Shown here piece after piece: positions 3,935 to 47,460 of a stretch of DNA of 47,460 nucleotides. Each line of letters starts with the position of its first letter. Position 1 is the stretch's first letter. The notes under the pieces are model-generated. The model was not told the origin of the DNA, made no database searches, and saw only the letters and a program-made list of their open reading frames with translations. The DNA comes from Gammaproteobacteria bacterium (GTDB lineage: Bacteria; Pseudomonadota; Gammaproteobacteria; Eutrophobiales; Eutrophobiaceae), in NCBI GenBank assembly GCA_028281365.1, contig JANQJZ010000014.1, positions 1-47,460 on the forward strand. Reading direction: 5' to 3'. Both the position numbers and the translations under genes were made by a program.

Positions 3935-5038
3935 GTGATCATTCAACGCTATATATTTCGGGAATTAACTCAAAAATTATTCTGGATACTGGGCCTCCTT
4001 ATTCTGGTCTTTACCAGTAATAAATTTGTTGGTTTTCTGGCTGATGCTGCTGAAGGCAGTCTTCCAGGAGAGATGGTCTTTATGATGTTGTCGTATAAGA
4101 TGTTGGCAACATTACCCAAGATTTTTCCAATCGCAATACTGGTTGCAATGTTATTGGCTTTTACCCGTATGACCAGTGACAGGGAACTTGTGATTCTTTC
4201 TGCGGCGGGAATAAGTAAACGATATCAACTCGGGGTCGTTATCCAGTTTGCATCAATATTTTGTGTGCTGGTTGCTTGTATTACATTGTATTTAGCACCC
4301 TGGGCCGAGCAGAATGTGCACAATCTTAAAGAAAGGGCCAAGCAGGAATCAGATATTTCAGGAATTAAGCCGGGACAATTCAAGGAATTTAGTCAAGGTG
4401 ACAGAGTTGTGTATGTCCAAAAACCTTCAGTTGACAAAAGATCAATGGAAGAGGTTTTTTTGCAAGTCAGACAGGAAGGAAAATTAGGTGTATTAACTTC
4501 TGATAGTGCACGTTTCAGAATTGACGAAAAATCAGGTAATAAATATATCGTATTTAGTGAAGGGCGTCGTTATGTTGGTGAACCCGGTTTACTGGACTAT
4601 CAGATTACTGAATATGAGAAATACGCAATTCTGACAGAACCGGCAGAAGCAGATGCATCCGGCGCAAAGATGTCTGCACTTTCAACTAATGAAATCATTG
4701 GATCAGACAACACTCACCATCAGGCAGAGTTTCAATGGCGAATTTCCCTGATTATTTCCTGTTTATTATTGCCCGTTCTCGCATTGCTGTTGATCCAGCC
4801 CCATGCCAGTGATAGACGCTATCAACCATTTGTAATCGGCTTATCTATTTATCTTATTTATAGTAATTTACTTGGTATTGCACAGACATTACTGAAACGT
4901 GAAGTTGTCCCTGTCTTCATCGGGATATGGTGGGTGCATTTATTACTGATTATTTTATTGTTTGTTCTTTATTACCTGCCAAAAATACGCAATATCTCTA
5001 CCAATGAAGATGAACATCAATTTATCCCTGCTGAATAG
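3935..5038 (+). CDS. lptF: LPS export ABC transporter permease LptF
   Basis: An inner-membrane permease of the LptB2FG complex that extracts lipopolysaccharide and pushes it to the LptC-A-D bridge. It has 367 residues and starts at a GTG (3935) giving MIIQRYIFRELTQK, the typical LptF opening. Three membrane segments lie near residues 12-120. A periplasmic beta-jellyroll region spans roughly 125-260. Three further segments follow in the C-terminal third (from LIISCLLLPVLALLLI on). Its stop is 2 bp from the lptG start, so the two subunits are translationally linked. Confidence 0.95.
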   Translation: MIIQRYIFRELTQKLFWILGLLILVFTSNKFVGFLADAAEGSLPGEMVFMMLSYKMLATLPKIFPIAILVAMLLAFTRMTSDRELVILSAAGISKRYQLGVVIQFASIFCVLVACITLYLAPWAEQNVHNLKERAKQESDISGIKPGQFKEFSQGDRVVYVQKPSVDKRSMEEVFLQVRQEGKLGVLTSDSARFRIDEKSGNKYIVFSEGRRYVGEPGLLDYQITEYEKYAILTEPAEADASGAKMSALSTNEIIGSDNTHHQAEFQWRISLIISCLLLPVLALLLIQPHASDRRYQPFVIGLSIYLIYSNLLGIAQTLLKREVVPVFIGIWWVHLLLIILLFVLYYLPKIRNISTNEDEHQFIPAE

Positions 5039-5040
5039 CC

Positions 5041-6102
5041 ATGATTCTTGATCGCTATATTGCACGAAATTTGATTGCTATTAGCCTGTTGGCTTTATTT
5101 GCATTAGTTGTTGTTTTTTCTTTTTTTTCATTAGTCGATCAGCTTGATGATACTGGTGTCGGTAATTACGGTGTTTTACAGGCTGTTCAATACGTTCTGT
5201 TAACCATACCAAGATTGAGTTATGAACTTTTTCCTATTGCTACAGTAATAGGCAGTATGGCGGTACTGGGAATTCTGGCGAACAATTCGGAGTTAGCTGT
5301 AATCAGAACATCGGGTGTTTCCCAATTACAGTTAGCACTATCATTTTTAAAAACCAGTATTGTGTTTATCATTGTAAGTATCATTATTGGAGAATTCATC
5401 GCACCTGTAAGTGAGCATGCTGCACAACAGAAACGGTCTATTGCGCTAACCAAGCAGATATCATTAAAAACAAAACATGGTTTTTGGTCTCGTGACGGTG
5501 ATAGTTATATCAATATTAGAAAGATCTTGCCCGGTGACAGGGTTGAACAAATTTATATTTTTGAGTTTGATAAAAATCATGAATTGAGATCAAGTATCCA
5601 TGCCAGGCATGCAGAATATAATAATGATAAATGGATCTTGCACGACATTCTGAAAACTGAAATTTCCGAAGAACAAATTTCGACAAAACGTTACGATACT
5701 GCAGAATGGGAAGCAGTACTTAACCCGGAAGTTATAGATTTAGTAACGATTAAACCACGCTATTTATCGTTGTATGGTTTAGTAAGTTATATTCAATATC
5801 TAAAGGCCAATAACCAGAACAGTAAGCTTTATGTACAGGCATTTTGGTCTAAAATTTTGAATCCATTTGCAATTATTGCGATGATATTACTGGCATTGTG
5901 TGTTGTTAAATGTGAAGCACGTCCGATAGGACTTGGCCAGCGTGTTTTTATTGGTGCTTTAATAGGGATTATTTTTCATCTGGTTAACCAGGTAAGTGGA
6001 CATCTCGGAATCGTTTATGGAATTCCTTCTTTTATTAGTGTTAGTCTGCCTACTATTTTAGTACTTGGTTACATTTATTATTCACTAAGTAGAAACCGGT
6101 AG
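5041..6102 (+). CDS. lptG: LPS export ABC transporter permease LptG
   Basis: The partner permease of LptF. It has 353 residues with the family opening MILDRYIARNL, an N-terminal set of three membrane helices, a soluble periplasmic domain (about 125-265) and a C-terminal set (KILNPFAIIAMILLALC onward). The segment EARPIGLGQRVFIGALIGIIF, split by the bilayer, is typical of LptG. It follows lptF with no room for a promoter. It converges on the RDD gene with a 3 bp gap. Confidence 0.95.
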   Translation: MILDRYIARNLIAISLLALFALVVVFSFFSLVDQLDDTGVGNYGVLQAVQYVLLTIPRLSYELFPIATVIGSMAVLGILANNSELAVIRTSGVSQLQLALSFLKTSIVFIIVSIIIGEFIAPVSEHAAQQKRSIALTKQISLKTKHGFWSRDGDSYINIRKILPGDRVEQIYIFEFDKNHELRSSIHARHAEYNNDKWILHDILKTEISEEQISTKRYDTAEWEAVLNPEVIDLVTIKPRYLSLYGLVSYIQYLKANNQNSKLYVQAFWSKILNPFAIIAMILLALCVVKCEARPIGLGQRVFIGALIGIIFHLVNQVSGHLGIVYGIPSFISVSLPTILVLGYIYYSLSRNR

Positions 6103-6105
6103 TGT

Positions 6106-6537
6106 CTATTCCGGTTGTTTAACGACCAATCGGGTTTTTGACAAATGATCATGGAGTGCCAGCTTGTTGCGATCGACAATAGACCATAAAAAACCCAGGC
6201 CAACGAGGAAAGTTGATAATAATGAACAAATAAACCTGATTGATGCCTGTTGCCAGTCAGGATAATTATTAGATGAGTTAACAACATAAATATTCCAGCT
6301 ACGCATTCCCAATGTTTGACCACCATTAGTCCATTGCCAGCAAAAATACAAATAGCAGATAATCAGCAAGAAAAGGTTATAAGCAATATTGCCGCTATCG
6401 ATTGCGCCATCTACTGATAATGGTATCAAGATTAATGATGTGAAAAATAATACGGAAAAAAGCAAAAGGCTGTCATAAAAAATAGCTGCCAAACGGCGCA
6501 GGAAGGAACAATTCGTATGCTTATTTTCTTGCGGCAT
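6106..6537 (-). CDS. RDD family membrane protein
   Basis: A small (143-residue) membrane protein of the RDD family. RDD proteins are named for Arg-Asp-Asp residues in their first helix. Here that position reads RRLAAIFYDSLLLFSVLFF, with the basic and aspartate residues preserved in a looser form. Two more hydrophobic segments follow, and the linker QTLGMRSWNIYVV is the typical post-helix motif. Function is generally unknown; some members are implicated in ion transport. It converges with lptG, where many gammaproteobacteria also place an RDD gene. Confidence 0.85.
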   Translation of the reverse strand: MPQENKHTNCSFLRRLAAIFYDSLLLFSVLFFTSLILIPLSVDGAIDSGNIAYNLFLLIICYLYFCWQWTNGGQTLGMRSWNIYVVNSSNNYPDWQQASIRFICSLLSTFLVGLGFLWSIVDRNKLALHDHLSKTRLVVKQPE

Positions 6538-6590
6538 ATTTACGATACTATAATTAAATAATGTTATGTTAACAAAAATATAAAAATTCG

Positions 6591-7256
6591 ATGGATTTCG
6601 TAACCCTGTTTCTCCCGAATGTTGTAAGTCTGGGTCTTATTCTCTTTACAGTTTTAGTTTCGATTTATATCGCCTTTAGAATTAAGTGGCTGAAAAAACT
6701 AAACGACGGGAATTTTAATGTCTGGATGATTAGTATATTAAGTTTAAGTCTCGTTTGGATGATGAGGGCAAGTCTTGATTCAGGCCTGAATATCCATCTT
6801 TCAGGTGCAATGCTTTTCACTCTGATGTTCGGTTGGCGCTTGGGTGTTTTAGGGATGACGCTAACATGTATACTAGTTTCTTTATGGGGGAATAGTTTGT
6901 TAGCCAATATCGGTTTGGCAATAATAATAAATGCTTATATTTCTATTTCTTTTTGCTATTTATACTTTTTAATTGTAGAGACATTTTTTCCAAGAAACTT
7001 GTACATCTATTTATTTGTGACTTCATTTTTTGGTTCAGCGTTAATTTATATATTATCAGGATGTATATCCATATTAGTATTGTTACTGTTTGATATTTAT
7101 TCATATACACAAATTTTAAACGAATACTTGCCTTATTATTTTTTATTAAGTTTCGCTGAGGCCTTCATAACATGCGGATTAATTACTTTGTTCGTCGTCT
7201 ATCGTTCAGAATGGGTTTATAGCTTTAGGGATGAGAAATACCTGTCCAATAATTAA
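6591..7256 (+). CDS. CbiM-like (energy-coupling-factor-type) integral membrane protein
   Basis: A 221-residue protein with about six membrane helices. The pattern HLSGAMLFTLMFGWRLGVLG in the middle resembles the H-x-x-G and G-W/P-x-L-A-x-L-G region of CbiM/NikM substrate-binding membrane subunits. The end, VVYRSEWVYSFRDEKYLSN, resembles the C terminus of a related uncharacterised gammaproteobacterial family. The short N-terminal Met-His metal-binding motif of true CbiM/NikM is absent; the chain begins MDFVTLFLPN. No ATPase or second transmembrane subunit is nearby, so metal transport cannot be claimed. It diverges from the RDD gene across 53 bp. Confidence 0.6.
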   Translation: MDFVTLFLPNVVSLGLILFTVLVSIYIAFRIKWLKKLNDGNFNVWMISILSLSLVWMMRASLDSGLNIHLSGAMLFTLMFGWRLGVLGMTLTCILVSLWGNSLLANIGLAIIINAYISISFCYLYFLIVETFFPRNLYIYLFVTSFFGSALIYILSGCISILVLLLFDIYSYTQILNEYLPYYFLLSFAEAFITCGLITLFVVYRSEWVYSFRDEKYLSNN

Positions 7257-45976: not shown

Positions 45977-46303
45977 TTCCTCTATTTTCCTGACTTATAA
46001 ATTCTTTTAAATATCAGTTTCGCCTGATGGCGAGCAGCTTTTCTTTGCACGACCAAAGAAAAGCTACCAAAAGAAAGACCGCCCCGATGTTATGGCCTGC
46101 GGCTTCCCTCGTTCGTGATCAGTTATAACGGGTCTCGCATAGGCTAATCCCTGATCCGATGCGCTCAATTGTGCGTCCTGCACAATTGACCCTATAACCG
46201 TTCACTCCCTCGGCATAACATAAGGGGAATTTAAGACAAATATTCTTTACTGAATTTAACGGAGTAGTATTCTTAAAATTAAATTTATTGCTATTAATTA
46301 AAT
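45977..46303. other. 327 bp intergenic region holding structured repeats
   Basis: No gene is visible. A 10 bp perfect hairpin (GCTTTTCTTT and AAAGAAAAGC, about 46038-46065) is followed by the nested palindrome listed separately. Confidence 0.5.
46087..46221 (+). repeat. nested palindromic repeat, left copy
   Basis: A 135 bp element with nested complementary arms: ATGTTATG/CATAACAT (46087-46094, 46214-46221); GTTATA-AC-GGGTC with GACCCTATAAC (46122-46134, 46188-46198); GCAT/ATGC; and an inner 10 bp hairpin TCAATTGTGC/GCACAATTGA (46165-46189). Linkers shared with the right copy are CTTCCCTCGTT (46103-46113), ATGCGCT (46159-46165), TCCTG in the loop, and CTCGGC (46209-46214). Confidence 0.75.
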
Positions 46304-47248
46304 ATGGCTCTCGATCATTACGTATCACAAGTTTATTTAAAAAATTTCTATTCTCCTGAGTTAGGGAATGCATTTTATGTAATTAGAAAAAATAAACCAG
46401 GGATATTCCATCAAAGTTCTACAGGAGTTTGTCGAATAGAAAAAAACAGTACTAATGCATATTTAAAAGAAGACAGAATTATTGAAGAGTTTCTGAAAGG
46501 AGTAGAACCTAATTACAATAAATCTTTGGAAAATATAATTTCAGGAAATATTAATACTGAATCTATTTATGTAATAGCTGGCTTTGTGGCTTACATTCTA
46601 ACTTGTTCTCCAGCTGCTATGAGGATCCAATCGCATCCACTAAAAAATATAGTTGAAGTTACATCAGAAATGCTAGACTCAATGGGTAAAATTCCGGCCC
46701 CTCCTGAAATTTTGGGTGGAAAAACACTATCAAAATTAATTGAAGATGGAAAAATAGAAGTAAAAATTGATCCTAAATACCCTCAAGCTATAGGCATTAC
46801 AAATATACTATCTATTTTAAAAACTTTTGGAAATTCAACTTGGGAAATTTTATTAAACAATTATGACGATAATCCTTTTTTTACTAGCGACTTTCCTGTT
46901 GCTATTGAAAAAACTAATGACAATAGAATCTTAAATCGATTGGTACCTCTTTCTCCATATGTTGCGATACGAATAAATCCAGACATAAATTTGGATAAAG
47001 ATAAAACGGATTATGATTTCTCTAAATTCAGATACTTAATCAGAAAAATCAAAAGAAAAGAAATAGCATATATTAATAAGCAAATAGTTAAGTGTGCTGA
47101 AACTATTGTTATTTTTAGAAATAATCTTGATTGGGTTAACAAATTTATTAAGAAGTATTCTAATTATCGCATTGAACCTAAAGCACAAAAAATATCTCTA
47201 GATACAGGTAATTTGCTATGGTTTTCACAAGAGATTGTAAAAATATAA
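46304..47248 (+). CDS. DUF4238 domain protein, accessory
   Basis: A 314-residue soluble protein of the DUF4238 family, function unknown. The family opening is clear: MALDHYVSQVYLKNFYSP. The middle has a hydrophobic helix (VIAGFVAYILTCSPAAMR), and NPFFTSDFPVAIE is a typical conserved stretch before RLVPLSPYVAIRI. The C-terminal third is Lys- and Ile-rich. The gene is more AT-rich than the neighbouring sspAB and has no operon partner. It lies between inverted copies of a structured repeat, so it reads as a transferred single-gene cassette. DUF4238 genes are often found in variable genome regions; a defence role is possible but unproven. Confidence 0.85.
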   Translation: MALDHYVSQVYLKNFYSPELGNAFYVIRKNKPGIFHQSSTGVCRIEKNSTNAYLKEDRIIEEFLKGVEPNYNKSLENIISGNINTESIYVIAGFVAYILTCSPAAMRIQSHPLKNIVEVTSEMLDSMGKIPAPPEILGGKTLSKLIEDGKIEVKIDPKYPQAIGITNILSILKTFGNSTWEILLNNYDDNPFFTSDFPVAIEKTNDNRILNRLVPLSPYVAIRINPDINLDKDKTDYDFSKFRYLIRKIKRKEIAYINKQIVKCAETIVIFRNNLDWVNKFIKKYSNYRIEPKAQKISLDTGNLLWFSQEIVKI

Positions 47249-47313
47249 TTAATTATGTAGGTAAAGTAGGTATTCTTGGGGACATTGGGGACAGACCACG
47301 TTTTTAATTTCCG
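47249..47313. repeat. GGGGACAGACC motif downstream of the DUF4238 gene
   Basis: GGGGACATTGGGGACAGACC spans 47278-47297. Its core recurs at 13084 next to the EAL gene. Motifs of this kind accompany REP-associated transposases. Nothing else is visible in this stretch. Confidence 0.45.
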
Positions 47314-47452
47314 TGATGGCTTGCCGAGTTGTGAAATAGCGATAGCGGAAAACAGACAGGATGTCTGTTTTAGCGCATCCAGTCATGGATGACTGTATGC
47401 GTGACGCGTAAGCGCTATTGAATAACGAGGGAAGTCGAAGACCAAGCCATCA
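47314..47452 (-). repeat. nested palindromic repeat, right copy (inverted)
   Basis: A 139 bp element with outer arms TGATGGCTTG (47314-47323) and CAAGCCATCA (47443-47452), second arms AATAGCG (47335-47341) and CGCTATT (47413-47419), a 10 bp hairpin AAAACAGACA/TGTCTGTTTT with loop GGA (47349-47371), and CAGTCAT/ATGACTG flanked by GCAT/ATGC (47375-47400). Read on the minus strand it has the same order of linkers as the left copy: CTTCCCTCGTT, ATGCGCT, TCCTG, CTCGGC. Confidence 0.75.
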
Positions 47453-47460
47453 GGAAAAGG

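Follow-up and report, generated by a model that had tools for sequence, protein, structure and literature searches.

Near the right end of the window, the whole 47,460-nt stretch of DNA analysed here, a DUF4238 gene lies between two inverted structured elements. These elements are members of a widespread family whose ends are folded and polar and, inverted to each other, enclose single genes that can be swapped; several units of this family are linked to integron parts. We read them as transposon-like, integrase-less units with folded ends and exchangeable cargo, some of which carry a Pc-attI region loaded by IntI in trans, and we give this reading a probability of roughly two in three. The original prediction, in which inverted copies of a structured repeat frame the gene, was confirmed as an observation. 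Of its interpretation, the cassette and the selection on a fold are supported, a structured RNA is less supported, and the integron parts and the two end types go beyond it.

Structured ends of the window unit

The window contig (C21) is part of a 2.2 Mb gammaproteobacterial genome and stops at position 47460, 3 nt past the right core, so that the right outer arm lies outside the window. The genes sspA and sspB are found upstream of the left element, and the DUF4238 gene and the right element are both in the window. The unit comprises the following features:

46020–46033, + strand: outer hairpin 1 of the left end (TCGCCTGATGGCGA), read from the sequence; the same hairpin lies outside most copies
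46036–46065, + strand: outer hairpin 2 of the left end (AGCTTTTCTTTG...CAAAGAAAAGCT), then the linker ACCAAAAGAAAG, read from the sequence
46080–46229, + strand: left A-type structured end, core of the ACGGGT...ACCC type (model R1, 154.6 bits, E 1.8e-35)
46304–47248, + strand: cargo ORF of 314 aa, DUF4238 (Pfam PF14022, E 1.4e-22)
47287–47305, + strand: TIRYT-type terminal repeat (GGGGACAGACCACGTTTTT), one copy, placed after the gene and before the B end (19 nt match the repeat found beside a Y1 transposase gene in genome G228)
47308–47457, − strand: right B-type structured end, core of the ACGCGT...CGCT type (model R1, 151.7 bits, E 1.0e-34)

The two model matches bear out the opposite orientation of the elements, with one AT-rich ORF in the interior (28% GC), and the linkers CTTCCCTCGTT, ATGCGCT, TCCTG and CTCGGC occur in both elements in identical order, as originally described. 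The left core consists of an outer stem, a small hairpin, a long stem and a three-way junction with two TCC-loop hairpins. The A and B types of the window ends were assigned from columns 95/272. The extent first given to the elements is right for the core; the true element is longer and includes the two further hairpins at 46020–46033 and 46036–46065. Both are also kept as folds across copies, the second outside most copies with its layout kept and its letters changed.

The TIRYT-type repeat at 47287–47305 is probably a later passenger; it sits between the gene and the B end and may have replaced an attC. Repeats of this type (GGGGACAG / GGGGTCAG) lie 3′ of both DUF4238 genes, the one in the window and the one in unit L128 (at about 6440–6470).

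Covariation of the ends

When folded as single-stranded DNA and compared with shuffled sequences, the left element gave a z-score of −3.3 and the right (B) end one of −8.95. In an alignment of 16 copies made without structure guidance, 31 of the 40 predicted pairs show double changes. The 102-copy alignment, which was fitted to the model and leans towards structure, has 38 of 40 pairs changed on both sides and 91.5% of cells paired, against 63.0% in shuffled controls and about 39% with slid partners. That the stems differ in sequence yet pair was first noticed in two copies; these counts take it beyond a two-copy accident and support the proposed selection on a folded nucleic acid. GC-rich versions in other bacterial families keep the layout with almost no letters shared.

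On the strand of a conserved RNA, G-U pairs are expected to be tolerated in large numbers. In the structured ends wobble is rare: the outer-to-inner strand has 53 G-T cells (1.3%) against 110 A-C, and on the opposite strand wobble reaches 2.7% of cells, the maximum for either strand. With G-T/G-U below 3% on both strands, folded DNA fits better than RNA, and the ends, whose alignment cells are not independent, modestly favour a DNA fold on this sequence evidence. The elements might instead be RNA structures, paired terminators or insulators, that shield acquired single genes and are inherited with the cassette without moving it. Strong hairpins do flank single genes on both sides, and many sites lie between convergent genes, for example near xth. 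The same wobble counts speak against this explanation, as do an Rfam search of the window, which returned no family for the elements and only two tRNAs above the gathering score, and the units of genome G104, multiplied with interiors of 77–79 nt and no gene to protect. We therefore consider it quite unlikely, and the earlier suggestion of a structured RNA on either side of the gene loses ground with it. A likeness of the GGA/TCC loops to CsrA sites was dropped, such hairpins being present on both strands. With selection on folded DNA as the preferred reading, the end family is a rare case in which such selection can be read directly from covariation.

Distribution of the end family

DNA and model searches detected eight R1 copies in the window genome and up to 22 in its relatives; further copies thus exist beyond the original two, their stems covary and they enclose inserts. 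Copies were found in 18 of 53 family genomes, 12 of 185 sampled class genomes and 6 of 398 phylum genomes, counts that include the window genome and come from a search model biased to its own family. DNA similarity searches of plasmid and phage collections retrieved no useful relatives of the elements, and neither did a pattern search of viral contigs, apart from one weak model match. No match was found in the literature searched for the repeat family under several descriptions, which does not prove its absence.

Several variants were retrieved. Another family (genome G055; L141, L142 and L237–L240) has divergent, mostly single copies with the same three-way core and with outer arms that form one long palindrome. 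In G104, L068, L070 and L071 share the core and have differing outer hairpins, as if the outer module had been exchanged alone. The outer arms are very often directly adjoined by a distinct repeat, GTCATTCC...GGAATCCAG (L075, L076, L106, L109 and L112–L116).

Inward pairs and two end types

Among element neighbours no more than 5 kb apart, 33 of 35 pairs face inward, one is +/+, one is −/− and none faces outward. The interiors of inward pairs measure 36 to 4133 nt. The ends are split by columns 95/272 into A (GC) and B (CG), and of 32 typed pairs 25 are A/B, seven are A/A and none is B/B. In a permutation test the A/B excess gave p = 0.036 in the window's own family alone and p = 0.0004 across all units, a set made up of related copies. 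The same diagnostic bases occur in a second bacterial family, in G104, at an overall identity between families of about 50%. In this genome seven or more units, each about 580 bp long with a gene-free interior of 77–79 nt, are dispersed over the sequence; the pair is thus multiplied as a unit. The A/B rule also makes a concrete prediction, that of an enzyme with two different substrates. Of the cassette proposed to move through its ends, the bounding by elements is observed, and we infer the movement of the ends.

If the ends were ordinary MITE- or REP-like intergenic repeats, the cargo would be enclosed by chance and the cassettes would have landed by off-target IntI activity. Solo copies are indeed common (88 of 154 listed copies lack a close pair, many on short contigs), and G009 has sites with piles of small hairpin repeats, with neither core nor cargo. 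Chance enclosure, however, predicts outward and same-strand pairs as often as inward ones, which is not what the neighbours show, and B/B pairs are absent. Clusters of attC that lack an integrase are known to arise by off-target insertion of cassettes (PMC8618304). The leaders described below, however, are attI regions with a promoter, not random landing points, and taken together we judge this explanation unlikely.

Integron parts inside the units

Several of the units contain integron gene cassettes. When attC sites were sought with a model built exclusively from those next to intI, matches were obtained in L120 (E 9.5e-11), L108 (1.6e-9), L067 (0.0017), L109 (0.008) and L128 (0.031). Weaker matches lie just inside the 3′ ends in L108, L114, L115 and L116, three of them at E 0.48–2.6, and in the unit loci every match was on the inner side of an end. 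The L120 attC is 98% identical over 60 nt to an attC of the same genome's integron.

Leaders of 45–220 nt are shared among interiors, and in all annotated units with such a leader it lies 5′ to the cargo. Those of L117 and L120 align over 135 nt with the segment that separates intI from the first cassette in the sister species G226 and G018 (73–75% identity, E down to 1e-21) and keep a TGGACA...TATAAT promoter-like pair and a TAGTTA crossover. The leaders of L105, L130 and L067 also match G226 or G018 attI regions. In L128, GTTAGGC precedes the DUF4238 gene and an attC follows it, as in a gene cassette, and this second DUF4238 unit is clearly an integron cassette. The leader of L118 runs into GTTAACGAAGGG with no gene, and filled units end in ...CGTTA(A)..ACGAAGG; L118 thus looks like an empty unit. 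L067 (positions 4988–6631; G006:C7) has a single structured end with an attI-like leader, genes and an attC, its far end is missing, and its complete genome has no recognised integron integrase.

The window unit gave no attC match up to E 10 and no match to attI regions or to sister-unit leaders; L059 and L065 likewise had no attI or attC. We have therefore not classed the window unit as an integron cassette. In its ends, its layout and the kind of gene it carries it agrees with the family, of which it is a member that has either eroded or received its cargo in a different way.

IntI was detected above the curated cut-off in 15 of 53 family genomes, seven of which carry elements. None was recognised in the window genome, and in G000 and G006, genomes of about 100% completeness, units are present and no IntI exceeds that cut-off. 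Co-distribution of IntI with the elements is weak and not exclusive, and no structured ends were found within a few kb of intI genes.

Cargo genes

The pair interiors hold differing AT-rich genes: DUF4238, HNH, DpnII-MboI-type, SNase, MqsA-like and RNase T-BRCT genes and genes for small membrane proteins. Some of the unit cargo is toxin–antitoxin-like, and Phd/YefM and Fic genes lie inside single ends. No transposase or integrase was found inside any unit examined. The interior of L122 (2450–6480; G228:C23:42449–46479) contains eight small ORFs on one strand, separated by a 57–63 nt hairpin repeat (AATGTCTGCTT...GGCC...AGCGGACATT) without AAC/GTT boxes, and looks like a second kind of cassette array.

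The window DUF4238 protein scores 80.9 bits against PF14022 (cut-off 27). Its relatives were found only on rhizobial plasmids, at 40–47% identity, and none in viral contigs. A DUF4238 protein in a unit of another genus (G002) matched the PADLOC DUF4238-Pers model at 8.3e-84; the window protein is a distant member that hardly aligns to it. A single-gene DUF4238 system protects Escherichia coli against T7 (PMC9122126), which makes 'defence-like' a fair description of the window gene. Compared with that system, the window protein has the domain in common and appears distant, without a PADLOC match.

Shared sites between genomes

Different cargo was observed at the same site in different genomes. 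L108 and L114 (G009 genus) share a site with flanks 82–84% identical and leader-side ends 93% identical, and their cargo differs. Their far ends (L108R and L114L) are 54% identical; both the cargo and one end have thus been replaced, an outcome for which a simple swap of cassettes at attI does not account. L117 and L105 have the flank and the leader-side end in common (89–90%) and differ in cargo. No target-site duplication was found, the unoccupied comparators, the L119 sites in G224 and G003, being too diverged (73–80% identity) for one to be read.

The site near xth varies among relatives: some have a complete unit there, others one end, others two half-hairpins joined to each other, and others nothing more than a TTTCGCC...GGCGAAA-like palindrome, a series consistent with decay by deletion. 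Solo palindromes of this kind or variants of it, with the outer arms inverted around them, were also seen in L255, L256 and L257 (position 1501) and in L200, and are probably scars of unit deletion. Pre-existing TTTCGCC...GGCGAAA palindromes were rejected as targets, since they are rare (five in 53 genomes, three of them in element-rich ones).

Search for a mobilising enzyme

The search brought up no enzyme that acts on the ends; neither Y1 transposases nor IntI track the elements. The units could be REPIN- or TIRtron-like and moved by Y1 tyrosine transposases (RAYT/TIRYT), enzymes that act on folded DNA ends, and for some Y1 genes long flanking inverted repeats are described that fall into families (PMC3733652). 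Y1 genes do not, however, track the elements: G006, G018, G226, G227, G229 and G232 have elements and no PF01797. The Y1 genes of G000, G002 and G228 are accompanied, where any repeats were found, by their own of 21–31 nt, and no R1 element lies near them (loci of 1.5–3 kb). A Y1 transposase as the mobiliser is very unlikely and was rejected for now on co-distribution and neighbourhood.

A model for the units

In the reading that we propose, the window region is one of a dispersed set of transposon-like, integrase-less units, each with an A-type and usually a B-type end inverted around short, swappable cargo. The ends are conserved in their folding, which most likely takes place in single-stranded or cruciform DNA, and an enzyme encoded outside the unit would move or rearrange them. 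Close to one end, on its inner side, many units have a promoter and an attI that derive from a chromosomal integron, without intI. IntI acting in trans would insert cassettes at the unit attI, each with its attC, which would explain the changes of cargo from unit to unit and, at a given site, from genome to genome. The window unit combines the same two ends with a DUF4238 gene, of a family that occurs as an integron cassette in a sister unit.

Integron cassettes are usually pictured in one array beside intI, and stray attC clusters as debris. A broader and more tentative proposal, to which we give less than even odds, is that the units form a network of integron outposts across the chromosome: an undescribed recombinase would recognise the polar A/B ends by their folded structure, each unit would have a promoter and attI, and one IntI would load and swap cassettes, including defence genes, at many loci. 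If so, the integron would gain many expression sites across the chromosome from units in which folded, repeated ends accompany a promoter and attI, and the swapping of single defence genes at fixed intergenic sites would be explained.

Comparison with known systems

Like REPIN/RAYT and TIRtron/TIRYT systems (PMC3733652), the present elements are inverted folded repeats in dimers, intergenic and multiplied without a gene of their own. They differ in that the ends are far larger, with no GTAG tag seen and no Y1 neighbours. In IMU and other TIME-COMP elements, two short inverted elements surround passenger DNA and the transposase acts in trans (PMC13367494, PMC4133298); IMU itself encloses an integron fragment with a cassette. 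The resemblance lies in inverted elements that bracket passenger DNA, including integron parts. TIMEs, however, have Tn3-family terminal repeats and usually 5-bp duplications, whereas the present ends are covarying hairpins of about 260 nt, of types A and B, chromosomal and dispersed. The outer arms start near TTTCGCC, and a Tn3-like GGGG...TAAG end is not visible by eye.

CALIN, or integrase-less arrays (PMC8618304), likewise have cassettes with attC sites at a distance from intI; the present arrays differ in being enclosed by structured ends and in retaining a promoter and an attI-like leader. With integron cassettes the units share attC, a GTTRRRY-type junction and single AT-rich genes. The ends resemble attC in being putative folded recombination sites whose structure is kept more than their letters. 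They are not attC, having a three-way junction, TCC loops and an arrangement in inverted pairs, and no AAC/GTT boxes were seen in them. Where the defining features of known MITE families could be checked they were lacking, and the family appears to work like IMU crossed with an integrase-less integron.
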